64,000 nt of DNA, from contig FN649751.1 in assembly GCA_000310025.1 (NCBI GenBank), forward strand, positions 2,364,805-2,428,804. Direction: 5' to 3'. Source of the DNA: Ectocarpus siliculosus (Eukaryota; Sar; Phaeophyceae; Ectocarpales; Ectocarpaceae). The notes under the pieces were generated by a model, which saw only the letters and a program-made list of their open reading frames with translations, made no database searches and had not been told where the DNA came from. Position 1 is the first letter of the stretch. Each line of letters opens with the position of its first letter. Made by a program: the position numbers and the translations under genes. Shown one piece after another: positions 1-63,706 of this stretch.

Positions 1-3000
1 GTTGCTCATACACCCAAGAAACGGCGAGAAGCAAAAATCGACACCGTAAGTACTCGTCGACGGTGATTGTACTACTACTGTTATGCCCAACCACAGCCTT
101 GTTCGTAAAGACCGTAGAGAACTGGTGCCCCACACTAACACTCTGATTCATTCGTAAATGGTTGGGTGGAAGGTTTCTTCCTGCGCGCACTTCGAAGCAA
201 AAACGTTTTTTTTTGTGTGGAAGGAGGGAATCGTCCTTGACAGGCGATGGGGAGATTGTACCCACCATGAAGGGGATCTCCACATTTTTGCTTGCGCGTG
301 GGTTCGCTACGTCCGCCACTCCTAGAAGTTCCACACGTCTAAAAACTGTTATTGGTCCCCCGATTTTTTTTAGCATTTTTGGAAGTATGGCTGGTGGCGA
401 GGTTTGAGCCCGAGTTGGTTTCCTCGTCCACCAAAATCAAACGTCGATCGTCGACGCCAACGTGAAAAGAGGGATCCTCGACAGCGGTAGGCTCAACCAC
501 CCACTTCTCCTACAGTAATTAATTCGAGAAGAACTGTGTCCATCGCGTGGAGCATTTTTTTTTCTTCCCATGCGGCTGTGGTGCTCAAGTTTGCTTGCAT
601 TACATGTTTTACGTATCCACGCTGTACATGGGTCGATGGCGGCGCGGCAAGCTCCGTAACAAACAGCGGTACTTCTCGCGCGATGTATTTGCCGACGAGG
701 GTGCGTGTGTGTGTGGAGAGGAGAGGGGGGCACGAGGTGTGATTCCCTCACCAAACTTCCCAAAGGCAAGGAAGGTTGGAACATCAATCCACAGACGAAT
801 AATCGCGATTCAGCATGATGATTTTGTCAGTGTTCAGAAACCCATCCGTCCCCATGTAGCCGTGCCTCGCCGGTGGTCCGTTCTCCACGAGGACAGCCGA
901 TTGACTACGCCAACAGTCACGCCATCCGTTCTGGGGCCTCTAAAAGACGGATTGGAAGATTCAATCAATCGCAAGATAATCTGAGTTGTTGGACGACAAA
1001 AAATCGAACTAACCACACACCCTTTCCAAAACCACACACCAGTACTAAATAAAATACTGCGACGAAGCATACAGACCCTCCTGTACCCGAGACCCACCCC
1101 AACGGACGAACGGAGAAAAATTGGTACTTCATCTCAACGCCGAAAGACAAGAGTGGTGGCAAAACTCGCCCAAAACGACCACTGGAGCGGCACGATCAGG
1201 GCACGACGGCGGGCGGCAACAACAGCATCAACAACACGTTCACCAAACAACAAACGAACAAACGCGCGTAAAACACTCAACACTTTTGAGATGAAAATAT
1301 TGTTCGCTCGAAAGAGACGACTGGCCAAATCTGTCCCGACTCCACGCGCGGACAGAAGGTAAGCTTTTCCTCGCCCCAGTGGACCAGGGTGGGCGTCGCA
1401 AACGGCGACAAATACAGATCAATCGTCGTGCAGCTTTACCTCCCAACGGCATTGTTTCGCAAATACACAAACAGCCACGCGCTGAAATTAATGTTTCCTT
1501 GTTTGACTCTGTAACGTAAACATACAGCAAAAATTCCTTCTCGATCGCATGATACTGCACGTTGCTTACAAGAGGTCAAGCAACACGACACAAACGAAAA
1601 CGACACAGCAGTCCGAAGGCTCAGATCGGAAGGAATGCTCTAGTACTGCGATACACACAGTGTCGAGGGGTGCCGTGTCTCGCGTGCGCGCGAGGGGGGG
1701 GCGGGGGGGGTCCGAAAAAAAAAAAAAATGCTACGCACACAAAGAAGTTACAGGACGCAAAGCATACCTACTGTCAACGCGTTCGCTAATTTAAAAAAAG
1801 GCATGTACACTTCAACTTTAACTTGCGGGAAATCAAGGGCCCGCCAGAGACGCAAGGGGATGTATACATATAATCTTTAAAACCGTAGCGTAATGTGTCT
1901 CTACACATGAACACAAGCCACGGCAAACCGTCGCCCGAATGGGGCTCTCATTCAACGACGACAATGGACACAAACCGCAACACTGTCAGTTAATCGAAAT
2001 AGTGGGGTGGAGAAAATAAAAGAAAAAAAGACAGAAAGAAAACGAACATCACTATCCTACAGTACAGCTGAGGCTCCCCGCAACAACAACTACAACAACA
2101 ACTACAACAACAAGAGTTCGACTTCGTCGGCGCTTGGGTGTTTGCGCGTCCGAATCCACATCTCGCCTCGGCGCCGCGTTTACGTATGTAGAAAGTATGC
2201 CCTCCTTCTACAGCACGGCCGCCGATGAAGAGCGGAACGCAGAATAACGACAACAACAATCACAACGACAACGATTAAACAACATACCCAAAAAAGAGAA
2301 CCATGATCATTAACATTGCTGTTGGAGTGTGGAGCCATCTCGGTCGTAGGTAACTTCTCTTCTGCGCGCCCCCTTTCCTATATCGGCGGCCGGCCTCGTT
2401 TTCTGCAGCTCCCTTTCTGTTGATATCGGATCCCTCGACAAAAAAAATCGCAACGAAAAACAACGGCCCCCCCTGAGTGTCACCGTTGTCGGTGTGGGAC
2501 CATAAAAAAGCCCACTGACGTTTGTAACAACAACACAACACACAATCTGCATCACGCCCTATGTTCGCTCTCTTCTCATCTCCTCCCTCTTCGCATCACC
2601 TGTAATGCAGTCTACTGCCGCGTCTCGATTCTCCTACGACCGGAAAAACACCGCGCGCACGGACGGAGCGCTCGGCACACCCCGCTCAGCTTTGCAACCA
2701 TGTCTACACAAAAACACCCCCCGCCTTGCGTGCGCAAGGGAACGACCGACACTAAAAAAAAAAAAAAAAAAAAAAAAAACAGCTCTCTAGAATCAAGCAC
2801 ACCGATACATCTCTGGTGGCGTCACAGCAGCGATCATTCACATCTCCAGAACCGTGGGAAAACAAGGAGACTTCACTCGCCGGTCGCAGAACGTCTGCTG
2901 CTGTAACCTGTTGGTCCGGTACCTAAACAACCCGGTCAAGGGAAGTAACGATCGGCCGACCTCGCTGGCCACGGCCGGCTAGCCCCCAAAAGCCAAAGGC

Positions 3001-3616
3001 GCTCCTTGGGCCACCCGTTGACTCACATACATATGTAGCTTGCCGCCAGCTGCTACAAAGGCTTCACCACGATCTCGTCGCACACAGGAACGGGACGGGG
3101 GCAGACGGGTCTCAAAACCTTACCGAACCAAGGAAAGAGGGGAGGAAGGGACACAGGACGCGCGCCATCAAGAGCCAGATTCTAGGAAGGAAATCCCACC
3201 AAAAAACGAGCCCTTGCCGACAGCTAGCTTTCTAGGGACACAAGAGAGAGCTCACGACAAAACGACCACATCGAACGCACAACGACGGCAGTGGAGAGGG
3301 CTCTAAAAACCACCTACCGGGTACACGGGGACACTCGTCCTGACACCGCCGCCGGGGAGCAACAATCAAGACACCCACCCACCCAGCAGCTGGACAGTTC
3401 AGCTGAATCACCATTTTCGAAGGAAAAAACATACAGCCGAATAAATGCCACTTGTACTTCACCCAGCACCGGCCGTTTACGCGTCTCTTCTTTAACACCC
3501 AGCCACACACGGGTTCAGACGCCATCCGTCGATCTGTTTTTCATGTTCGCCCCCGCCCCCCGCCCCCCGCCCCCCCTCCAGCTTCCGCCGGCATCACCCC
3601 GACACACCAACAACAA
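1..3616. other. Intergenic; no supported gene
   Basis: I find no exon here that I can support; the open frames are short and low in complexity. The right part, perhaps 2.7-3.6 kb, probably holds the 3' untranslated region of the minus-strand PAN3 gene. The segment has an AAC/ACT-rich stretch at about 2080-2115, a 26-base A run at 2754-2779 and C-rich tracts near 3548-3575. Where the gene to the left begins or ends is not visible. Confidence 0.5.
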
Positions 3617-6600
3617 TCAGTACGGCGGTGGCTGCGGAGGCCCCCCCGGGTGGTGCCCCACCATCGGCGGTCCCATCATCACCATGCCGGGGTGGTGGTG
3701 CTGGGGGTGGTGGGGGTGGTGGTGCTGGGGATGGTGGTGAGGGTGGTGCCCCATCGGGACCACCACGCCGCCGCCGCCGCCGCCGCCGCCACCGCCCGGG
3801 TGGTGCGGCACGACCCCTCCGTGGACGACGTGAACCCCGCCCCCGTGTACCCCGCCGCCGTGCACGAGACCCCCCGCGTGGCCCCCTCCGTGCACACCCC
3901 CGATCCCCATCGCCATCCCGCCCCGGCCGCCACCGTTGCTGCCGCTTCGCCCCCCGCCGCTACCACCCTGGCCACCGCGAGAAAGCACGCCGCCGTGATG
4001 GCCATGGCCGTTCGCGGCATGACTGCCTCCCTTGTTGCCGCCACGGCCACCACCGCCGCCAACGGAGGAGGAGGGGGCGGAGGCCGCATGCTGTTGCTGC
4101 TGCTGCTGCTGCTGCTGCTGTCGCTGCTGGGGCGGCGGGCCGGCGTGACCGGAGACCTCGGCGAAGGCCTCCTCGAGGCAGCGCTTCACGTCCGCGAACG
4201 ACACGACCAAGAGAGAGCGCCTGTCCCTGCTGGTGAGGAGGATCTTCTCCTCGTTACCGGCGTCGAGGAGCGACAGGCTCTGGTACACGTGCCCGAAGTC
4301 CATCACCGGCTCGCCGTCCGCATCCACCTGTGTACATGCGTACATGTGTGTGTGCGTGTTTTTATGGAGTAAACATCGGCCGCGCAATTTAGCCGGCTGA
4401 CCAATGAAGAGACGCCAGTCTCAAAGCGGTTCAAAACAAAAAAATGTTTCCAAAGGCCATCACCTGTGCGTGTGTGTGTGTGTGTGCCATGGTTATTGGC
4501 ATCGACCGCCCTAACCGGCGTGCCAATTTGTACTTGGAAGTATGTGTGTGTGCCTTGAACTTGCTTTTTTAAGTTTTTAAGTTTTATTAAACCTATGAAG
4601 TATCGACCGAGCTAGCCGGCTTGACCAAGGAAAATACGTCGGTCCTAATGCGGGATTCATCGTGTCGGCGTCGTCATCGCTGTCGCTGACACCCGAAACT
4701 TCGACAGGTAGCGTCAAACAGGGAGAGACTAAAACCGCAGCCCAGCCGGTGCCGGTGCCATATACCATCCTGCAAGTCTCGCCGAACCAAGAGCCGACCT
4801 CCTCCTTCGAGGAAACCTAAAAGAACCCAACCACACATTTCCTCACACACGCTGGTCTGACATACTGGGCGGGCTGGGCAAAAGTACACCCACGCACGAC
4901 TCGCCACACCAAACTGATGCAACAACAACAAAATAGTCGCAAGGAAAGGAAGAAGACAAAGAAACATCAACCACACACACAAAGGGCAACGAGAGCACCA
5001 GAAACAAAGCCGCCAGCACGGGCAGGCGAACGCGCACGAATGCCCGCACCTGGTGGAAGAGGTAGTCCCTGAAGAGCTTGAGGATGTAACGCTCCCCGGT
5101 CTCCGACCACTCCCCGACCCCGCCCTGGTCGGGCCTCTCGTTCAGAGTGCCCAGTTTCAGGAGCAGCCGCAGCAGCCGCCCGTTGTCATACTCGCTGTAT
5201 TGTGTGTTTTTCGCGATCGTAGGTCGTTGTATCCCATGTGAAGCCATTCGTTTTGTCCGCGCCCCCCCCCCCCCAGGGCGCGCCGGGAAAAAATAGGTAG
5301 GGAAGAAGGACGTCGCACACAACGGCAGTGGTGGGAAGTGGCAAGACAAGCGAGGTAAGGTTGGAGTCCAGCACAAACGGACGAACATCGCAGTGAGGAC
5401 CGACTAAGAGAAAGATGAGGCGAAAACGAGACACGCGTAGGGGAACAGCGGCGGCTGGCTTTTGCTGCGTACACGCTGTCGCAATTCGCGCACACAGAAG
5501 GACTGAAAAACCAACACCCATTGCACAAAAAAACACACACATGCCTGCTTTGCGGAACACACCGTTCGTCAAAAGTCCTCAGCCAGACCTGCGACTACCG
5601 GACACAAACAAAGCGTGTGGGCCAACCAACGCCACCACCACTGACTACCGCCCTCCTTTTTCGCGCGCGCGCGCGTCTCTCTCTCTCTCTCGCGCGCGCG
5701 CTCTCTCTCTCTCGTTGTGCCGTCCCGCCCGTACCTTGCCAAGTGGCCCTGAAGCGCGCCGTTTGCCATCAGCGTGTTCTCCATGGCGTCCATGGTGTGA
5801 TGGGCGGTTGCCACGCAGACCTGACCGTAAAATAACAAACAACAAAAGTGTCGTGGGGTATGCAGTCCGTCAACAACAGCAGAATTGTGATCCACACGTC
5901 GCCACACAATGAATGTCCATGTTGGGCACAAAATCTTGCAAAATAACAAAAAAAAAAACACTCGTCCGGTTGCATCCAACAAACGCTGCCAAAGTCCATC
6001 TTCCGTGTTGGCAGCGATTGCGACCGACTACGTTCTCGTTCCGTCCTCGCTCTTTCCACGGACAGCGGGCATTGCGTTCTGTCCCTCCCTCCCTCTTTTC
6101 TTGCCCCCTTCGTCCCTAAACCACGGTGCTCAGCCGCAGACAGGCCTTTCGTGCAAACACAACAACCGTTGCTGCTGTGTTTGTTTCGCGTTTAGCACTA
6201 CCTCATACGAAGCACTCCAGTGCTTCCGGTGTCGTCTGTATGCTGTGCGTGTGCCCCACAAGATCGGCAAGGAGTGTGCACGAAGGACAGCAGTTCGCAC
6301 TTTAGTCTCGGCGTTTTCAAAACCCGCACAACAGATCGCTACGCATGATACGTGAAAAAAAGGGCTCACCAACAACATTTCTACTGAATATATGGTTTTG
6401 GTTCTGCACACTATTTTTTTTAACGTTTGATACCTTGTTTTCCCATCCAGCAATGTATGCATGCATGCATGCGTCCCTACTGGGTGTCTGCCTTCTTTGC
6501 TGTAGATCTTGCCGAGTCGCTGCATACGACAGTGCTGAAACCACCACCGCTCTCACCTCGAAAACGCTGGGAGGCTTCTTCGACACGAGCGACGCCGCCA

Positions 6601-23036: not shown

Positions 23037-26000
23037 ATGAAGGCCGTGTTTGCGGGCAAAGCTCAACCAGGCGCGGTTGGAGCGGCGCGGCGCCTGCTGG
23101 CGAGCGGGCTCGCGATCGTGACGGTCAACTCACCAGGGACTCACCACGCCCTGAAGGAAGCCGGCATTGCTCACCAAGATGTGAGAAGGAAGCCGGCGTC
23201 TGTTTTTTTGCTCATTCCCCATGGAATATGTATGCATGCATGTTTGAAACCTGATTGAACTTTTGAAATAGGACGTGTGCGTGGCGGATCCAAACATGCA
23301 TGTTGTCGCGGGGCTGGTGTGTGGTGACGCCTTGTCATGAACAACTGCAGGGCGAGGAAGTGGGTTGAATGCGTGTTGGCTCTCTTGTTGATCACGTTCC
23401 TGTTCAAAGCCTGCTGGAGTTCCTGTCGTTCCGTCTCCAATTGCTTGGTTGCTAATAACTACGCTCTCGGTCGTCAGAAGGGGCTGCTTGCCGCCGGAGC
23501 CGACAGCACTGCCGGCGTGGCCGTAGTGGTGGGAGGGCTGGAAAGCGCAGCGGATGTCGCCGGGGGCGACCCGAGCACTCATGCGTTCATAAGGTGACCG
23601 CAGGTTGTTTTGTGCGTGCTTCAATGGTTGCGCCGCTGCCACTCTATTCAGCCAGCGTTTGTATCGGATCATGCTCGCATGTTTCATCTATGTGGTCATC
23701 TATGTAGTGGATTATTGGTTGGTGCTGATTGGCTATTTGTGTGCATTTGCGGCTCCCGCCAGAAAGCCTGGCCTACAGCAGCACTGGCGGTTAAACACAC
23801 AGGGTCATTATTTTGTTTGGAACGCATCGCTCGTCCACAAGGACAAGGAGCTAGCGAATGGCAGCGGGAGCATGGGTCTGCAAGTCAGTAGCGTTCGCGT
23901 GGCTGTCTTGTTGGAATTTATTGAATTTTCAAATTTCGCCAGCACCCACTGCAGGAAGCATGTGTGACGGCAGACCTAGCATACGATACCTGCTGCATAC
24001 CTCGCAAAAGTGTTTGTAAGGATGTGGGGTCGGGCTCAATTCTGCATTGTGCTCTTGTAACAACTTGACATTGGAGTTACCGTCTTCCGTGTCTCTACAC
24101 AGCAAGTAGCCGTAGCGACAGCAGTTGTCGTACAACCTCACCCCTCGACTTGCACACATCGGCGTAAAACGGGTCCTCTCTTTCTGTAGCAAAAAACGCG
24201 TCTCGACCAAACGCCGTGTGTCCCCCCTGCCTAGACCCTACCAAACAAGCAAGCAGGTACAGCAGTAGACAGATAAAAAACACCGAGAGCGAGCACACCC
24301 GTTTCCCCCCCGTCCATACATGTAGGGCGGCAGCAGTCCAGCACGCGCGCATCGCCGTCGTGGTCGACCCGGAGGACCTCTCCAAGGTCGCAGGTGAGTC
24401 CCCCAGCACCACGGACGGCCTCATGCTGTCCTCCCTCGGCCGCCGCTCTCTCGCCGCCAAGGCCCTGCGGGCCACGTCCGCGGCGGACAGCCGCATCGCC
24501 GAGTCGCTCCTGGCGGACGACACCGAAGCGATTCCGGGGAGCGGCGGCGGAAGCGGCGGCGCCGTCGTCCTCGTCATCGGCTCCGGCGGCCGCGAGCACG
24601 CCATCGCGCTCAAACTGGCCGACTCCCCGCGGGTGTCGCACGTCTACGTGTCCCCCGGCAACGGGGGCACGGGAAGCGGCCGCCATGCGGGCGTTTCCAA
24701 CGCCGACATCCCCTCCTCGGCAAAGAGCGGCGACGGGCCCCACGCCGCTGTCGTGGAGTTCGCAAAGTCCAAGGGCGTGTCTCTGGTCGCCGTGGGGCCG
24801 GAGGTGCCCCTGGTGGACGGCGTCGCGGACGCGCTGGAGGCGGCCGGGGTGCCGTGCTTCGGCCCCAGCGCGGCGGCGGCCAGGCTGGAGGCCTCCAAGG
24901 CCTACTCGAAGGACTTCATGGCGCGCAACGACCTGCGGACGGCGCGGTACGCGTGCTTCACCGACTTCGAGGCGGCCCGCAGCTACGTGATGGAGGCCGG
25001 GCACAGGGTGGTGGTGAAGGCGTCGGGACTGGCGGCCGGGAAGGGGGTGCTGATGCCGGAGACGAAGGAGGAGGCCGTCGCGGCGCTGGAGGTGGTGATG
25101 GTGAAGAAGGAGTTCGGGGAGTCCGGCGCGGAGGTCGTGGTGGAGGAGTTCCTGGAAGGGGAGGAGGTGCGTGGGAGAGAGGAGAGAGGAGGCCGGCTTC
25201 CTCTCCTGGCTCGGAGAGAGGCAGTGTCTGGTGCTGTGCTGTTGTTGTTGTGGTGATGGTGGTGGTGTTGCGGGAGGGGTGTCGTTCGAATGTCCCTGAC
25301 TACGTGCTCCTGGCCAATTGTTTTATGCGCCTGCTCGTCAGGGTTGCTCCTGCTTTCCTCTGTGGTGCACCCAGTTCCTTGTAACAAGTACCAAAAAGCG
25401 GCATCTTGTACGTGGGACTGGGTTCGGTTGATCCGGTTGGTCGGTACGTTGATACCCTTGCTGCTGCTGCTGCTACTACTGGTACCACAAACATGCATCG
25501 TGGCCTATTTCGACCTAACCTCGCAGGTGTCCATCCTGGCCATCTGCGACGGGAAGACGGCGGTGTGCATGCCGGGGGCGCAGGACCACAAGCGGGCCCT
25601 CGACGGCGACGGCGGCCTGAACACCGGGGGGATGGGCGCCTACGCGCCCGCGCCCTGCCTCACCCCGCGCCTGGCGCGAGAGTGCGCGGACATCTGCCAG
25701 TCGACGGTCACGGCCATGGCGGCGGAAGGAAGCCCCTTCGTCGGGGTCCTCTTCGCCGGCTTCATGCTCACCAAGCAGGGGCCGGTGGTGCTGGAGTTCA
25801 ACGTCCGGATGGGCGACCCTGAGACGCAGGTCCGTTTTGCCTGAGGTGGGGATTGTGTAGGAGGGGGCGGGGTGGAGAGCTAGATGGCATGGGGAAAATT
25901 GCCGGCATGTGTATGTACGTAATGAGAGCAGGTTGGCCAACCTTCCGGTGAGTGGGGAGGGAAGAAGCTATTGTGGACGATCACCGGGTGTTGCGAACCG

Positions 26001-29000
26001 TGTTTTTGGTAGAGCAACAAAACACCCATAGGATCGGACCTTGGCGTACTCTGGTGCACACCAAGCAGTAGGAGCGTATGTCCATGAGTTTTTTTATGGG
26101 CACGTCTGTACAAAACCGCGCAACCCACAACCTCGATAAAACATCATCAAACCACCGGACACCCGTCGTCGCCTATTGTACTTACCCAACCAAGCACGCA
26201 CATGCTGATGTAAAACCTCAACCGCACACAGGCGCTGCTCCCCCTGATGGAGAGCGATCTGTACGAGGTGATGCTGGCGTGCACTGAGGGCCGCCTGGCC
26301 GAGACGCCCGTCGCCTTCACGCCGGGGGCGGCGGCGGCCACCGTCGTCCTCGCGGCCGACGGCTACCCGGGCAAGTACCCCAAGGGCATGCCCATCTCGG
26401 GCCTCGAGGACGCCGCCGAGATCCCGGGGGTCACCGTCTACCACGCCGGCACCAAGGCGGCGGCACCGGCGGCGGCAACGGCGGCGGAGACGCAGCTGTC
26501 CGTGAGCGGCGGCGGCGGCGGCGGCGGCGGTGTCGTGTCTTCCGGCGGCCGGGTGCTTGCAGTTACCGGGACCGGCGCGAGTTTCGCGGAGGCGCTGGAC
26601 GCGGCGTACCGCGGGGTCGGGTTGGTGAAATTCTCGCCCTGCCACTACCGGAAGGACATTGGGCACCGCGCGAAGACGGCGCCGCTGAGGGTCGGGGTGC
26701 TGGCCTCGGGCAGGGGCACGGCGCTGCAGGCGGTGATCGACTCGTGCGCCACGGCGGCGGAGGACGGCGGCGTGAACGCCGAGGTAGTGATCGTGGTGAC
26801 CAACAAGAAGGAGGCCCCCGTGAGGGACCGGGCGAAGAAGCACAGCATCCCCGAGATCTTCGTCGCCTCCAAGGTGATGAGCGGTGTTTTTGTTTTGGCC
26901 GTCTCCTCTGGCCGGTGCGCGCCGGCCGCCTTGGGAGGTTTCGGTTGAGCAGTGACGAGGCTATGCCCCAACTCTACTCTACCGGGTCCACTCTCCCTCT
27001 TTGAGGTCACACCCGTTCACCGTTGTTTTGTTCGACCAACCTTGCTGATTTTCTTGTCGTGTGCTTCTTGTGTTGGAGAATGCCAGCGTACGAGCGCCGC
27101 AAGCTCCCAAGGAATCTTGTCGAGGCAAAGTCCGATTGACGATAGACGATAGAATACGACAACGAGTGAACGCTCGTAAACATCAAATATTGACAATTAA
27201 GTGCCCGATTGTCTCGAGTCGCGCCCGCTGTGGTTTTGAAGGTAGTCTCCAAATCTGAAAATCACTTCCCCGCCGCCGCGCGGAGAAAAGCTCACCTCTC
27301 TCGGTCGGGTTTTCGCACTCGTTTCTCATCCGACTACATCTACGCGCTAATTTACGCGTCCTTCGACAACTAACGGCGACATGGATAACTTCTTGACTTG
27401 AGTTGCTCTCCTCTCCGCCTTGGCGTGTGCATAATTTACGTACAACAATACTGGTACATCACGACGACAACGACGACGCATTGCGCAACAACAACCAACT
27501 GTTAGGGCCGAGAGCGCGCAGCGTTCGACAAGGAGGTGACCAAGGCCCTCGAGGACGCAGGCGTGCAGCTGGTGCTCTGCGTCGGGTACATGCGGATCCT
27601 GTCGCCGGAGTTCTGCCGCCAGTGGGCCGGGCGGTGCCTGAACGTTCACCCTTCCCTCCTCCCGGACTTCGCCGGGGGCATGGACTTGCAGGTCGTTGCC
27701 GCTGTTAATCCCTCCCTCAAACTACACGGCCGGTAAAATGCTAGTTGTAGATGTCAACAGCGAATTTTCAACGTCGCGCAGTGTACTATTAATACTGATG
27801 ATACTTTGCCGTTCGTTGGCGTGTTTCGTGATCATGTTGTCGTCGTTGTTGCTGAAAGCGACCACCTTCGTTTTTTGTCACACCGGTGTGTGTGTGTGTG
27901 TGTGTGTTTCTCTCTGTGTGTGTGGCAGGTCCACGAAGCGGTCATCGCCGCGGGCAAGACTCGCTCCGGCTGCACGGTGCACCAGGTGACGGAGGAGGTA
28001 GATTCGGGGCCGATCGTGGTGCAGGAGGAGGTGGAGGTGGTCGAGGGGGAAACGCCCGAATCCCTCAAGGCTAAGGTGAGTCCTGGTGTGCTCGTCTGAA
28101 GAACGAGCTTCAAGGCCAGGGCAGGTTTTGGTTTTCTCTTGCGTCGTTACGGTAGATGGCCGTGGTTGCTAGCGAAGCGAACCTCGAAGAGCTAGAGGCC
28201 GGAAAACACGGCTTGTTTTCCAACCGGAGGGTAGTGGGATGTTTGTTGGTCTGTAAGCGCTGGGTGTAGCCATGGTTCGCGGGACTTCTTTTGCGCTGAC
28301 TTTTTTTACTCTTCGCGAGAGTCACGCAGCGATATCTTCGTGAATCGGGAGGTGGAGGCAGTGTTCCAAGAGGGGAAATCCCAACCCCCAAGGCTACCAG
28401 GTCGGTCAGTTTCATGTTTCCTATTGGACCAGTTGAGTGCGCTCCCTGGCCTCCCCCTCTCCCTCTGTCGGTTCGCGATTGGTGGTCGGAAGTCTGGGTG
28501 TTCGCCGACCCCCCGCACCTACTGTACCTTTTCTTTCTGCTTTGGTTGTTTTATCCCCTCTTTGCTTGCCTGCTTAGCAGCGGCCTTCCTTCAAGAGCAC
28601 CGCCACACGCATTTTCATCCCGCTCACGGACGGTGCTTCAACTGCAACGGTCGTAGTTTCAGCGAAATAACTAACAATATATATCACGCCACGCGAACGC
28701 CAGGTGCAAGCCAAGGAGGGTCCGGCCTTCCTCAAGGCCATGGGCTTGTTTATGAAGGGGGGCGGCCGCGGAGGTACCCTTCCCCCTCCCCCCGGCGCCG
28801 CCGCCGCCGCCGCCGCCCCGTCGAGCGGCATGAGCTACAAGGACGCCGGGGTCGACATCGATGCCGGCAACAGCCTGGTGGAGCGCATCAAGCCGGCGTG
28901 CAAGTCCACGAGGCGACCGGGTTGCGACAGCGACCTCGGGGGTTTCGGCGGTCTGTTCGACCTCGCCGCCGCGGGGTACGAGGGGAAGGACACTATCCTC

Positions 29001-30759
29001 GTCGGGGCGACCGATGGGGTCGGCACCAAGCTCAAGGTAGGCTACGTTATAGGAAGGGACGGATGGACGGAGGGAGGGACTGGCTGATTTTTGATTTGTT
29101 GTTTCTAGGAAGGCGTTGGAGGATACATAGGTCTCGCGAGTAGGTGTGGGCACTCAGGTCGTGACAGGTACACACCCCTTGTGCCGTGTACCCGAAGCGT
29201 ATGATGCCTACCCTCCAATCGGTGCCTGCGCGTAGACTGCGGTGTACAGTGCAGTAGCCGACAGCGCTCTCTATCCCGAACGGTTCGCTCTCGTGCGACC
29301 CCCCCCTCACACGCGCGCGTTCCCAGGTCGCGCAGATAGCGGGAGACCACAGCGGGGTGGGCATCGACCTTGTGGCGATGTGCGTGAACGACCTGATCGT
29401 GGCGGGCGCGGAGCCGATGTTCTTCTTGGACTACTACGCCACCGGCAAGCTTTCGGTCTCCGAGGTATCTAGAAGTTTGTGTGTGATGTGCAATGTATGA
29501 GGATGACGCGTGATTTTCCATGTGTTTTTATGTTTGTTAGCACACGCCATGTTGGTGCATTTTTTCTTGTTGTTGTTGTTGTTGTATATTTGTTGGAGTT
29601 GCTTGTCTCCACTTCTCGTTTGTCCAAAGGCATCGGCATCCATGAGGTGACTCCCTCTGGTTGCGCTCTCCTTCTGTTTTATGGCCATATAGTACCGATT
29701 CGTCTCTACTCTTGTATGCACGGTCTGGTCCTATACTTTTGGTGGGGTGCAAGACCTGGAACTCAGCTTCAGCCGCGCAAACCGACAACAGAAAGTCGGC
29801 ACGACCACGACCAGACAACCCCAGCAAACCAGCCAACAAGGGCTGCCACTCTTTTTACGCTGACCCTCGTGATTTTCTTCCCTGCTCCTTCGTCTTCTTT
29901 CCTTTCTCGTGCTGGGTTCTCTCCTCATCTTCCCAATAAATACTGAACCACCGCCAACACACACACACACGACAAGGCGGCCACGGTGATCGAGGGCATC
30001 GCCGAGGGCTGCCGCCAGGCCAACTGCGGCCTCATCGGCGGCGAGACGGCCGAGATGCCCTCCATGTACCCCGCCGGAGAGTACGACCTCGCCGGCTTCA
30101 GCGTCGGCGCCGTCTCCCGCGGCAAGGTCCTCCCCCTCCAGGTCTCCCCCGGAGACGTGGTACTCGGCCTCCCGTCCTCGGGCGTCCACAGCAACGGCTT
30201 CAGCCTGGTGCGCCGGATCGTAGAGGTGAAGGGGCTGTCCTACGGGGACCCGGCCCCGTTCAACGCCGCCGGGGGGGGGGCGGGGGCGGGGGGCAAGAGG
30301 AGGACGCTGGCGGAGGAGCTGCTGGTGCCCACGCGCATCTACGTAAGGGCGCTGCTGCCGCTCCTGCGCGCGGGGCTCGCCAAGGCGCTCGCGCACATCA
30401 CCGGGGGAGGCTTGTCGGAGAATATCCCGAGGGTGCTGGGGGCCGACGTGGCCGTGAGGCTGCGGATGGGATCCGCCGCCGCCGCCGCCGCCGCCGCCGG
30501 TTCCTCCTCAGCGTGGGACCTGCCGGAGATTTTCCAGTGGCTGAGCGCCGCGGGCGGGCTGACGCAAGAGGAGCTGCTCCGCACGCTGAACTGCGGGGTG
30601 GGCATGGTGGTGGTGGTGGCGCCGGAGGCGGCAGAGGAGGCGCGACGCCTGCTGAGGGAGGCCGGCGAGGAGGTGGTGCTGGAAATGGGCGTCGTGGAGG
30701 AGAGGGCCGGGCCCGACGCCCCCCAGGTTGTCTACGAGGGCCGCCTGAAAGGGTTTTAA
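23037..30759 (+). CDS. Fused purine-synthesis enzyme: PurH-like domain, GARS, GART, AIRS
   Basis: Eleven exons in continuous phase: 23037-23180, 23272-23316, 23478-23593, 24326-25166, 25527-25829, 26232-26873, 27515-27691, 27929-28075, 28704-29036, 29327-29464 and 29977-30759, giving about 1222 residues. Residues 1-170 resemble the MGS-like and IMP-cyclohydrolase part of PurH ([40 protein letters not shown]), but without its usual catalytic blocks. GARS/PurD spans about 182-630 ([12 protein letters not shown]-grasp [25 protein letters not shown]). GART/PurN spans about 633-829 ([16 protein letters not shown] and VDSGPIV supply the Asn, His and Asp). AIRS/PurM spans about 848-1222 ([31 protein letters not shown]). 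Together these would perform steps 2, 3 and 5 of de novo IMP synthesis. No clear targeting signal is seen, so cytosol is likely. Two small N-terminal exons (23272-23316, 23478-23593) and the acceptor at 27514 are the least certain points. Confidence 0.87.
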
Positions 30760-32660: not shown

Positions 32661-33057
32661 GAGAGTGTTGAAAAATCGTAAGAAAAAAAATGACCTCTGA
32701 AGTCCACCTGATATATTCGGTGCTGGTTGGGTATATTGGTTCTAGAGAAAGCAAAGTAAGCATACCACACCTACAGCAGGACAAACAAACGCGTCCGATC
32801 CAATCTTCGAAGGGGGGATGTTTGTCGCGGCCGCAGCTATCGAATTTTTTGTTCTCGTCGAAGAACGAGCCGTTACATCTGCAAGAGCGGCTCAGAAGAA
32901 CGCCTCCTGAAGGTGTGAAGAGCCCCGGTTTGAAATTTTGAAATTTTGGAAGAGGGTGCGCCATCAAGCGTACAGCGCGCCACACTCGGCCCACAGGCAA
33001 ACACCTCGAGCGGTGGACCGCGCCAGCATCGATCTCCTCGATCCTTCCGCACACGAA

Positions 33058-34420
33058 ATGCCGTCGGCTCCTCCCCCTCTCGAGCATTCACCTCGCGGCC
33101 CTTGGAATCAGCTCCACCAGGCCGCCCAAGATGGCCTGGTGGAGCTCGCGCTGGCTCTTCTCTCCAGCGGGTGGATTGACATCGACCAAGGCACCCAGGG
33201 CGGCTGGACTCCTCTCATGTACGCCACCATCGAGGGCTGCTTGCTCGTTGTTAGGATTCTCCTGGACAATGGAGCCAAGACCAACCTAGTTGCGGACGGC
33301 GGCGTCGATGCCTTGTCCACGGCCGCCATGGGCGGACACCTGGGCGTGGTCAAGGCGCTACTCGCGGCTGGCGCCAACCTCGAAGGCGCCAACACCAGTT
33401 TAAGCACCACGGCGCTCCACGTGGCTGTAGCCCATGGGCACACGGAAGTGGTGAACGAGCTAATCGAGGCAGGCGCGAACCCCAATACCCGCCGCCCAAG
33501 GGACGGAGGGACGGCACTGGCCCTGGGCGTCGTCGGGAGGATACGTGGGCATTGTCAAGCTTCTCCTACGTGCGAAAGCGGACCCGTCATTGGCTAGAAC
33601 GGATACGTCGGGAACAACCATCGTCCCGTTAGACGACACGGCGGGGGGTGGGCACTCAGACGTGGTACGCGAGGTACTACAGCAGGTTGGGATCAACGGT
33701 TGCTGTGGTTTACACTATGGCGGTAGGAATGCCCTCAGTCTGGCCGCGGACTACCAGTATCTTGGCATCATGGCCATACTTCTGGAAGTCGGAGTTGTCG
33801 ATACGGGGGAAGTCCTGATCTCCGCCGCCAGGCATTACCAAGGAGCATCAGTGAAATTCTTGTTGGGGAGCAAGGGACGGTGAACACGATGGGTATTGTG
33901 GACTATGTCAACGCCCGCAACTCGTTGGGCATAACGCCCTAGTTCGGGAGCGGTATTATTTAGGCTGACTTGTTGTGCTCTCCCAGAATTGTGCGGCTAT
34001 TCTTGAACGCCGGAGCGGATGCGACATCGGCCGTCCGGTTGACGCCACCGCCTGGGCGAATGACGAGTGATCCGACAGATCAGATCATCATGTTCGGCAA
34101 TACCCTGGAGTTCACTACCAACGATCGACGCCGTAAGGGGCACACCCGTCACGGACGAGCAGCTGCACAGGGTAGAGGCAGTCCGCCGCTTGTTGCTGTA
34201 AGTGGAGGCAGTTCATGCGGTGTCCTGGCTTTGGGCCAGCGATGACCTCTCCACCACCCATGGTGCAGAGGTTGCGAGTAGTTCCGAGGAAACTCCGACG
34301 ACTGGAACGCCGCTGGGGATGATGCTGCCAATCCTACGGCGGAGGGCTCAGAGACACGGTGTTGTCTTGGCGGCTTTGACAAGGTGGGTGGAGACGTCGC
34401 GATCTCGGGTCTCTTGACGA
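33058..34420 (+). pseudogene. Ankyrin-repeat protein gene, broken by frame changes
   Basis: The first block, 33058-33530, starts at an ATG and encodes about four ankyrin repeats. Signature stretches include WNQLHQAAQDGLVELALALL, GGWTPLMYATIEGCLLVVRI, HLGVVKALLAAGANLEG and ALHVAVAHGHTEVVNELIEA. Near 33531 one extra G appears to shift the frame. The next repeat continues in another frame (GYVGIVKLLLRAKADPS) to a stop at 33881-33883. A further repeat-like piece (IVRLFLNAGADATSAVRLT) begins near 33987 in a third stretch, past more stops. Ankyrin repeats mediate protein binding; no partner domain is visible, so no role is suggested. The frame break could be a genuine lesion, a sequencing error or an unrecognised intron. 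I favour a decaying gene copy because several breaks accumulate. Confidence 0.65.
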
Positions 34421-60197: not shown

Positions 60198-62140
60198 GCT
60201 TGGTTCGGCGGCGGGGCAAGCAAGCATCATCGTCGTTGCCGAGGCGGACGACCCCACCCTCGTTGAGCTGGAACGCCTCCCGAAGGACGCTTCCGAGGTC
60301 TTGTTCAGGGGTTCGACGATCGAGGAGTTCTCTACGCCCGAAGGAAAGCGGGCCCTCGCCGAGGCTAACGTACTCCTCAATTGTATCGGTGAGTTAGGAA
60401 CACGAGGGGGGTTTGACCAGTGTCTACATAGCAGCGTCTCCGTAGTGGATTTGAATCTGTCCGCGAAAAAAAGTGGGCCAAACGTTGAAGCGGGATGAAT
60501 TGGGTACGGATGAAGGAGCAAGGAGAAGTCGGAGGGGCTGGGTTAGGGCAGGAGATAAGTTTTTCTTCCGGCGACCTGAGAGTTTGATCGAGGGCTTGCT
60601 TGAAAAGGCGCAGAGGGTAGCTCTGGTGGGCATGGTGCTTTGCATAACCCTAAGAGTGTGATGTGACGCAAGAAGAGCGCCTACGCTCTTCTCTCACATA
60701 GACAGCCAAGCGAAGCCGTACTTGTTTACTACATCCCCTTTTGTTGTCGGTCCCGGTCCTCTCCCACTGCTACACTCTAGCCACCCTCTACTCACTTTCG
60801 ACGCACCGCTTCCGGACTACAGGCACGAAGGATCTGCTGAGCCAGCTGTTCCCCTTGGCGCCCAAGCTGGCCTGGGTCCACAGCCGGTTGGTCGGAGTGG
60901 ACGCCGCCCTTTTCCCGGCGCTAATCGAGGCCGACGACGTCTCGTTGACCAACGCAAGGTGAGCGGTACGGCGAGTGAAGCCGCAGGTTCCCTCTGCTTT
61001 CGTGTTATCTCTGTCCCTGTGCCTCTGTCTCCTCTTTCTCTCCCCCTCTCTTTGTGCAACCCTCTCTCCCGACCGTACTGTATCTACGCAAACACCCGTG
61101 GAGGCGACAACATAGATGGTCAAAACAACAAAGAGGAACTCAGGTTTTCCAAGAGAACAGTAACGAGCCGTAACTGAGAGCTAAGTCCACTGAACGGTGG
61201 CGCCAATTTTATCTCAGTCGTCGGTGGTGTGATCGGTCCAGTCGTTTGCATTCGGCAGCAGCGTGTCGGGTTAATAGTTCATTTATTCGGAGACACAGCA
61301 GTGATATGGTTTTTATTATGACATCAAACACATAGTCTATATATTGTTCTCTGGTACAACCGCGCCGCGACAAAGTGCCCCTTCCCCGCACGTAGGTGTG
61401 ATTTTGTGTTTAGTGCTGGTACGTCCGTCTTTTTACAACACGAATGACCGCGCGCGCTTCCTTCCACTGGTGTTGCCACCTTTTCCTTGTCTACTTATCG
61501 TTAATGTCGGATTGTGGGTGCGACGGAAAACAACGACACCAAAAACAACAACGACAACGACGACGACAGAGGACTCTTCGCCTCTGCTCTCGCGGAGCAC
61601 GTGGTGCTGTCTTGCCTGTACTTCGCAAAGGACGTCGACCGCTGGAAGCGGAACCAGAAGTGCCGCAAGTGGGAGCGCTATCACGTCGCTGAGGTACTAA
61701 CCCGAAAAACAAGCGCGCGCGCTGGGCTGGGGGGGTATTCACTTTCAGGGGACAGATATTGGGGGGGGGGGCATACCCATTATCAGACCACCGATGATGC
61801 CTACAGGGTCTGCATCGAAATAGTCTGGTTGGCTTCACCAGGCTGGCCAAAAAAGGAGGGGGATTACTGTAAGCACCTCGTGGTTGGCTTGCCACTTGAG
61901 TCGCCGAACCTAGGTCATGATGTCTGTGTAGTATTCCGAGCACCTTTACTTTCTCGGAGAGCATACGGCGGTCGCACCTAGGGCGTGCGGGCGGGCGTGT
62001 TTGCAGGAGGGCGGTGCTCCGGATCGTGTGTGTTTTACCCCATTGCTGAAATGTTTGATGTACATCGGTTTTCGTCCAAGAATTGATTTACGTCGGCGCT
62101 TCATCGTGTACTTGCCCTCCTCTGTCTCTCCGTCTCTCTG

Positions 62141-62221
<81 letters not shown>

Positions 62222-62228
62222 CTGTCTG

Positions 62229-62290
<62 letters not shown>

Positions 62291-63706
62291 TAACTCTCTC
62301 TCGTTGTATGTCTATATTTTGTCAAACGGAACAACTGTCGATGCATTGCAGGTGTCCAGGACTACGCTTGGGATCATTGGGTATGGAGACATTGGGCGAG
62401 CAGCGGCCGTGAAAGCCAAGGCCATGGGCATGAAGATCATCGCCCAGAGGAGGAGGCCCGAACTCTCGATCGGGGACGGCATAGTCGATCAAGTGTTTGG
62501 GGCCGGTCAGGTAAACAATGTCGGTCGATGGGAATCACGATAATAGACGCCTAGGGGGGGGGGGAGGGGCGTACTCTTTTGTTTTGCATGCCTTAGCGGT
62601 TAGACCATTGACCACGCGTGAACACGGTCTTCGCATTCGAAGCCGCAATCACACTTGAACTTGTCGTCTTCGTCGTCTACCGTCCTATGTCTTCGTCGAC
62701 GTTCTCGAAGGCATATGTCCCCGGTCCTGAATTTGACCTTAAGCTAGGGGGGGGTGTACTCATAGTCGTGCATGCCGTAGTCGTTAGACCATTGACCTCG
62801 CATCCCTACAAAGCCGGGACGGAGCACGCCGGGTTCTCACCGGACCAGGCTAGGGGGGGGGCTTCAATAAGAAACAATGCTGTGAATTGTCTCCTGTACA
62901 AACCCGATCCGTTCCCACCTCCGGCAGTTTTTTTGTCGGCCAACCGATGGAATCTGGGGCGGGCAACACTGCGTTGCTGACTACCCTCCCCCCCCTCCCC
63001 CCTTTCTCTCTCTCTCTCCTCGTTGTACCAGGTTGGCGATGTGATCGCACAATCTGACTACATCCTGGTTGCGGCTGCGTTAACGCCCGCTACCGTGGGG
63101 ATGGTGGGCGCGGAGGAGCTTTCGAGGGTAAGTGTGTGCGTCCCTGCCTGCCATACTGGTACTTTCTTTCTTCGATAAACCAAAGTGTCGTTGACCCCGT
63201 AGAGAAAACCATCGGGGAGATGTCTTGTGGTATTTGTACCTAGTGATTTTGTGATTAGCACCTGCTGGCATCACTGATAAAACATTTTCAGTGTACAGGC
63301 TTAAATAGACTCAAAATAAGCCCAGTACCCAGCCGGTTTCCCTCTTATTCACTGTAGTAAAGACTTCAACACACCCCGTTCGACTGTGGTCTTATCTCGA
63401 ATGGGTAGTCTTTCTGTGTTTGTTTGTATTGATTGATGTTTCCTAAAACCAAAGAGTAACGACGACCAGAACCGCCACAGTATTATGAGAAGTGTTGTGT
63501 GACACCCAGCATCACACCTGACAATTTCTTCACGCACATCCACTAATTCTGCCAACCTCTTTCCCCTCCTGCTGCACTTCCTCGCATGCCTTGTTCAACA
63601 AACAAATGACGCAGGCAAAGCCTCACGCTGTGATCATCAGCATAGGCCGGGGGCCTCTTATCGACGAGGGAGCCATGACACAAATGCTGCAAGATGGACG
63701 TTTGAG
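60198..63706 (+). CDS. D-isomer specific 2-hydroxyacid dehydrogenase, partial
   Basis: These NAD(P)-dependent oxidoreductases interconvert D-2-hydroxy acids and 2-oxo acids; the substrate cannot be told here. Six exons are visible: 60198-60388, 60823-60958, 61570-61693, 62352-62510, 63032-63127 and 63615-63706. The first begins with one base completing a codon, so an upstream exon is missing, and the last ends in phase 2, so the gene runs off the window. The N-terminal substrate domain includes NCIG, LAWVHSRLVGVDAALFPAL and LAEHVVLSCLYFAKDVDRW. The NAD-binding domain starts with TLGIIGYGDIGRAAAVKAKA, followed by SDYILVAAALTPAT and HAVIISIGRGPLIDEGAM, whose Arg is the catalytic arginine. The catalytic Glu and His would lie beyond the window. 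Splice phases agree throughout. Confidence 0.88.
62137..62287 (+). repeat. CT/GTCT microsatellite in a dehydrogenase intron
   Basis: GTCT runs at about 62143-62171 and long CT runs to 62287, directly upstream of the exon at 62352. They create Ser/Leu-repeat open frames that are not coding. Confidence 0.92.
62551..62860 (+). repeat. Two tRNA-like repeat copies in a dehydrogenase intron
   Basis: Copies near 62551 and 62744 share a G-run lead ('ctaggggggg'), 'gtactc', 'tgcatgcc', 'tag', 'cgttagaccattgacc' and 'cgc'. The block with 'tag..cggttagaccattgacc' resembles a tRNA D-arm (A box). Some 30 bases on, 'gcattcgaagcc' in the first copy and 'gggttctcacc' in the second resemble a T-arm (B box). 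A third G-run lead occurs at 62851. This suggests a tRNA-derived short element; neither copy looks like a functional tRNA. Confidence 0.45.
63308..63460 (+). repeat. Dispersed repeat R1, copy c
   Basis: Contains 'actcaaaataagcccagta', 'cagccggtttccctc', 'ttcactg', 'agacttcaacac', 'tatctcgaatgggtagtc' and 'tttctgtg', in the same order as at 11671-11800. It sits in the intron before the last visible dehydrogenase exon. Confidence 0.7.

Follow-up and report, generated by a model that had tools for sequence, protein, structure and literature searches.

A predicted Ectocarpus siliculosus fusion gene with the purine enzyme order PurD-PurN-PurM behind a PurH-like remnant

Gene structure and enzyme domains

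The window analyzed here is a 64-kb stretch of the Ectocarpus siliculosus genome (contig FN649751.1, forward-strand positions 2,364,805 to 2,428,804) that carries spliced genes and is part of a 189.5-Mb, 492-contig assembly (GCA_000310025.1). Eleven plus-strand exons at 23037-30759 of the window join into one 1,225-codon frame plus a stop codon (ATG at 23037, stop at 30757-30759; Table 1), which encodes the purine biosynthesis enzymes PurD, PurN, and PurM behind a segment (here called the head) that resembles the inosine monophosphate (IMP) cyclohydrolase (IMPCH) half of PurH. We regard it as very probable that this is a single nuclear gene for one polypeptide in which the three enzymes follow an IMPCH-half remnant.

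A search of the spliced protein with hidden Markov models for the four domains, as suggested by a first-pass annotation of the sequence, placed all three enzymes above their NCBIfam cutoffs in one frame: TIGR00877 (purD) at residues 183-630 (499.8 bits; cutoff, 288), TIGR00639 (purN) at residues 636-826 (181.1 bits; cutoff, 150.1), and TIGR00878 (purM) at residues 851-1207 (379.4 bits; cutoff, 236.35). By these model borders, 5 residues separate PurD from PurN and 24 separate PurN from PurM. Motifs that we presume to lie at active sites are present in PurD (NTGGMGAY), PurN (NVHPSLLP and EVDSGPI), and PurM (GGETAEMP). The closest solved chains are glycinamide ribonucleotide (GAR) synthetases, aminoimidazole ribonucleotide (AIR) synthetases, and GAR transformylases, and the GC content at third codon positions (GC3) is 0.92-0.94 across the three enzymes and 0.86-0.96 in every exon from 4 to 11. 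The annotation had described one frame through four recognizable domains; the frame and the three enzymes stand, whereas the fourth domain is only a shortened IMPCH half. It had also placed the formyltransferase (PurN) before the cyclo-ligase (PurM), unlike animal GARS-AIRS-GART, in which the order is PurD-PurM-PurN, and both the TIGR and the Pfam models bear out the order PurD-PurN-PurM. Low-complexity Ala/Gly-rich inserts, which do not occur in the aligned solved chains, are found in the PurD C domain (26457-26531) and in PurM (30475-30498).

We picked the exon borders by eye, guided by homology and the splice consensus. GT-AG ends are seen in every one of the 10 introns, partly by construction because the consensus was used in setting the borders, and each intron contains at least one in-frame stop; their overall GC content is 0.41-0.59. 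Exon junctions are in phase 0 throughout, except that between exons 3 and 4.

The domain joins lie inside exons (i.e., head/PurD in exon 4, PurD/PurN in exon 6, and PurN/PurM in exon 9), with no stop at any of them. Translation of the spliced frame shows no methionine for PurN at residues 537-725 and no stop before PurM. Because PurN has neither a start methionine nor an end of its own and its joins fall within exons, it is not a separate protein, barring alternative processing. That separate adjacent genes were wrongly joined, or that the assembly is at fault, might be argued from a gene model known from DNA alone and from the purH-purD and purM-purN neighbors of bacteria, but we consider it very improbable in view of the PurD/PurN and PurN/PurM joins within single open exons, the missing PurN start, and the uniform GC3 of exons 4-11. 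Separate transcription starts near 26.7 and 28.8 kb, which the annotation had offered as a mark of separate genes, are unlikely on the DNA, given joins inside exons 6 and 9 without a stop and a PurN with no methionine before residue 726. In animals, a PurD-only product (GARS) is made via an intronic end; no clean product of this kind is available here, because no intron falls at any domain border. The positions of the joins also argue against simple exon shuffling. A full-length transcript, the enzyme activities, and the function of the head are inferred.

The assembly was searched for other copies exon by exon, which yields lower bounds. GARS_A (2 exon matches) and AIRS_C (1 match) were met in the fusion gene only, and Formyl_trans_N was met in 6 places, i.e., 3 exons of the fusion gene and 3 places in two other genes that read as Fmt-like and PurU-like from their translations. 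The exon 4 translation matched only itself. These exon-wise searches, which can miss genes, revealed no additional PurD, PurN, or PurM in the 189.5 Mb.

Table 1. Exons of the predicted fusion gene, in window coordinates
Exon	Position	Strand	Content	Support or remark
1	23037-23180	+	Start of IMPCH-like head, aa 1-48	N-half IMPCH profile, 10.1 bits; weak phmmer match (9.4 bits) to residues 7-50 of PURH chain 1p4r
2	23272-23316	+	aa 49-63	Poorly supported; splice sites, frame, frame-specific codon bias
3	23478-23593	+	aa 64-101 and two bases of codon 102	Splice phase restores a 13-residue run aligned to PURH; codon log-odds, 0.35
4	24326-25166	+	End of IMPCH-like head (~24527), linker, PurD N domain from 24567	Possible alternative ATG at 24423
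5	25527-25829	+	PurD ATP-grasp	GARS_A, aa 291-482
6	26232-26873	+	PurD C domain to 26672, PurN from 26688	TIGR00877 to aa 630; TIGR00639 from aa 636
7	27506-27691	+	PurN	NVHPSLLP at aa 743
8	27929-28075	+	PurN	EVDSGPI at aa 782
9	28704-29036	+	PurN end (28757), linker, PurM from 28830	TIGR00639 to aa 826; TIGR00878 from aa 851
10	29327-29464	+	PurM	TIGR00878
11	29977-30759	+	PurM to stop codon	TIGR00878 to aa 1207; GGETAEMP at aa 986

Elsewhere in the window, an ankyrin-repeat open reading frame (ORF) lies about 2 kb downstream of the fusion gene (32911-33594, plus strand; PF12796, 85.5 bits), and an exon for a D-2-hydroxyacid dehydrogenase NAD-binding domain is located at 61932-62540 (plus strand; PF02826, 34.3 bits).

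The PurH-like head

PF01808 scored 25.0 bits (cutoff, 25) with the whole protein and 23.3 bits, below the cutoff, with the head alone. The match covers only positions 1-63 of 311, within the IMPCH half; the aminoimidazole carboxamide ribonucleotide (AICAR) transformylase half gave no match in the head. Two purH equivalog models gave 24-30 bits, compared with cutoffs of 402 and 528. PURH chain 1p4r aligns to head residues 3-48 and 98-161, with 49 residues between them instead of 78. A profile built from 12 IMPCH domains of bacteria (Escherichia coli and 11 loci) gave the head 39.0 bits, versus 8.9 for the best of 2,000 shuffles; by part, residues 98-167, which are encoded almost entirely by exon 4, scored 32.1 bits and residues 12-48 scored 5.3 bits. 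The exon 1 ORF ranked first of 1,609 ORF pieces of the window against an N-half IMPCH profile (10.1 bits, E = 0.049; next, 4.6 bits), and no other piece in 23037-24400 was among the window's eight best against either profile. PF02142 (MGS) had no match in the head (maximum E value of 10, with filters that drop most matches above about 0.1) or at the fusion gene in a whole-genome search, and a search of the assembly with the IMPCH domain of E. coli returned no match, the fusion head included, for which that search is too insensitive. By these scores, the homology of the head to the IMPCH half is real but partial. Because the scores are far below the purH cutoffs, PF02142 is unmatched, and invariant and catalytic residues are lost (see below), we read the head as a degenerate IMPCH half and not as PurH. 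The "PurH-like head" of the first-pass annotation is thus upheld in its IMPCH homology and narrowed to a shortened, probably inactive half.

Of the 60 columns invariant in 12 IMPCH sequences, 16 are kept in the head and 11 are gapped. A passage of PMC3261824 names Lys66, Tyr104, Asp125, and Lys137 (human numbers) as catalytic IMPCH residues. The head keeps Asp125 only, with Cys in place of Lys66, a gap at Tyr104, and Val in place of Lys137, in an alignment that is unsure in its gapped middle. Because one of four catalytic residues is kept, the head is probably inactive as an IMP cyclohydrolase. A diverged but working enzyme, which would make the protein tetrafunctional, could appeal to homology that is collinear with the IMPCH domain at its two ends and to the separate PurH gene of this assembly (five AICARFT exon matches; contig C483, 98084-102320), the N-terminal part of which is hidden in a stretch that reads N on its upstream side. 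That gene, however, does retain an end piece of the IMPCH domain (the only visible part; 19.4 bits), three of the four catalytic residues are absent from the head in the alignment, and no KTLHP-, NLYPF-, or IDxGG-like motif was found in three frames of 23037-24400; we give a working head hardly any credence. In our reading, the head is instead a shortened and probably noncatalytic IMPCH remnant, which may serve as a structural or ligand-binding extension or may be evolutionary debris. A speculative and rather unlikely proposal is that it is a conserved pseudo-enzyme that binds a late purine, i.e., IMP, xanthosine monophosphate (XMP), or formyl-AICAR (FAICAR), or docks the separate PurH, and so ties the early PurD-PurN-PurM steps to the end of the pathway, in a multienzyme built in reaction order independently of animals. 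A PurH half that persists despite lacking its catalytic residues would provide purine synthesis with a possible regulatory or scaffolding domain.

Translation of the head is likely, judging from codon usage. Codon log-odds in the predicted frame were 0.037 for exon 1, 0.039 for exon 2, 0.35 for exon 3, and 0.559 for the portion of exon 4 that belongs to the head. For each of exons 1-3, this frame was the best of three, and all values were above the maximum of the intron controls (-0.195; 2,000 pieces of 144 nt, with exons 2 and 3 being shorter and exon lengths other than that of exon 1 unmatched). Because the second frame of exon 1 (-0.091) also exceeds this maximum, base composition explains part of the signal in exons 1-3. 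Codons 102-132, which precede Met135, have a coding-like GC3 of 0.87.

Several points weigh against a single gene with a translated head. The gene model is drawn from DNA alone; GC3 is 0.70 in exons 1-3, compared with about 0.93 in the enzymes; and exons 2 and 3 alone score -0.7 bits against the IMPCH profile, i.e., they have no homology, and the case for them is made by splice sites, reading frame, and coding bias. Given this fall in GC3 and the lack of homology of exons 2 and 3, the true start could be Met135 or could lie in an unseen exon. The assignment of the two other formyltransferase genes as Fmt-like and PurU-like comes from a reading of translations and not from a family scan. PurL also carries an AIRS_C domain, and since AIRS_C matched the fusion gene only, the exon-wise search probably misses genes, which leaves the lack of a further copy unproven.

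A protein that starts at Met135 (24423, exon 4) would be a plain PurD-PurN-PurM enzyme, with exons 1-3 untranslated and the IMPCH-like stretch a fossil, perhaps a leader peptide. This is a possibility to which we assign a minor share: the GC3 of 0.70 in exons 1-3 (versus 0.92-0.94) and their faint or missing homology speak for it, as does the fact that Met135 is the sole methionine ahead of PurD outside exons 1 and 2, whereas the coding-like codons ahead of Met135, the first rank of the exon 1 ORF among the 1,609 pieces, and the best-of-three frame of exons 1-3 above the control maximum (for which composition accounts in part) favor a translated head.

Origin of the fusion

Each enzyme domain was placed in a tree with prokaryotic homologs. 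The PurD tree (29 rows) held 24 of 80 loci picked for spread and the window, human, presumed fungal, Bacillus subtilis, and E. coli sequences; the PurM tree (28 rows) held 23 of 30 loci (the weak or partial L124-L130 were dropped) and the window, human, presumed fungal, Neisseria, and E. coli sequences; and the PurN tree (18 rows) held 16 of 19 hits (the duplicate L092 and the short L033 and L060 were dropped) and the window and human sequences. In the PurD tree, the window grouped with the presumed fungal chain (100/98) and these two with human (97/88), apart from the 26 prokaryotic rows. In the PurM tree, the window, human, the presumed fungal chain, and one alphaproteobacterium formed a group (100/99). 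Its inner pair of window and alphaproteobacterium (99/91) involves one row only and is not to be trusted; because the whole tree includes a single alphaproteobacterium and, apart from the window, just two eukaryotes, sister relations within this clade mean little. The PurN tree gave no resolution of the placement of the window PurN. PurD and PurM look like ordinary eukaryotic genes in these trees, in which the sampled loci give no sign that the whole fusion was imported from bacteria. The first-pass annotation had read the different order as an independent fusion or a rearrangement in this lineage; the grouping of PurD and PurM fits either vertically inherited PurD and PurM genes that were fused anew or the insertion of PurN into an old PurD-PurM fusion.

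Prokaryotic genome contigs were surveyed with the 1,225-residue query, and no fusion was present among the domain hits on the best 80 of 373 confirmed stretches. PurD and PurN occurred together on 8 of these 80 loci, always on opposite strands, and purH was directly upstream of purD in 14, as it is in E. coli. All five same-frame purH-purD pairs (L030, L035, L045, L054, and L081) were rejected as fusions on account of a stop between the genes. L030, from a metagenome-assembled genome titled Deltaproteobacteria (tree label, Myxococcota), has a stand-alone 198-residue IMPCH ORF (2852-3448) directly before purD (3515-4840); as these are separate ORFs, it was also rejected as an IMPCH-PurD fusion. 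In L092, PurM is followed by PurN in a different frame. PurN was nearby in 12 of the 23 PurM loci, which span about 3-4 kb each, and PurM came first in 11 of these 12. The exception was L123, in which purN precedes a highly divergent purM (a very long branch in the PurM tree) and which comes from the same genome as L030. All 12 were rejected as fusions: three same-frame plus-strand pairs and the same-frame minus-strand L117 have a stop between the genes, and the rest are in different frames. Viral contigs gave one pattern match and no relative.

Predicted function and comparison with known systems

The gene would place GAR synthetase (PurD, step 2), GAR transformylase (PurN, step 3), and AIR synthetase (PurM, step 5) on one polypeptide. 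The protein would make GAR, formylate it, hand over the resulting formylglycinamide ribonucleotide (FGAR) to PurL, a separate enzyme (step 4), and later close the ring of formylglycinamidine ribonucleotide (FGAM) to give AIR. Because PurL acts between the PurN and PurM steps, channeling is plausible only for GAR, between the adjacent PurD and PurN. The most likely benefit of the fusion would be fixed stoichiometry and coexpression, with a possible gain from proximity for steps 2 and 3. The order PurD-PurN-PurM matches the reaction order, whereas the animal order does not, and the two offer a natural comparison for the effect of domain order on flux. Should relatives share the order, it would reflect either a GART-like multienzyme that arose a second time or a shift of PurN into a PurD-PurM fusion that already existed; in both cases, it would be a rare marker of eukaryote relationships that can be dated. 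Among the titles and abstract openings listed in searches of the open-licence literature, none dealt with this domain order, although it may have been published elsewhere.

The three domains of animal GART are listed in a passage of PMC10912719, and the name GARS-AIRS-GART appears in a reference title within PMC9502316. Like that trifunctional enzyme, the fusion has PurD, PurM, and PurN in one open frame with PurD first, and its PurD and PurM group with the human sequences in the trees. It differs in the order of PurN and PurM, in the added IMPCH-like head, and in the joins inside exons. Fungal bifunctional enzymes of the Ade5,7 type also hold PurD and PurM together, and chains 7lvo and 7lvp, which we take to be fungal and to derive from such a PurD-PurM fusion, are among the closest matches; unlike the fusion described here, these enzymes have neither PurN nor a head. 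Bacterial purH-purD neighbors share the position of the purH side ahead of purD, and bacterial purM-purN neighbors mostly show the reverse of the order found here (11 of 12), both as separate genes. In archaea, a halobacterial PurN-PurH1 fusion described in a passage of PMC3261824 likewise joins a PurH half to another purine enzyme; there, it is the AICAR transformylase half with PurN, whereas here it is the IMPCH half next to PurD. The stramenopile OMPDC-OPRT fusion, which a passage of PMC2705460 reads as an independent event, is also a nucleotide-pathway fusion in swapped order, but it belongs to the pyrimidine pathway and has two domains. Precedents exist in these sources for swapped orders (PMC2705460) and for PurH halves in fusions (PMC3261824), and the fusion is a variant of the GART-type multienzyme, a known kind.

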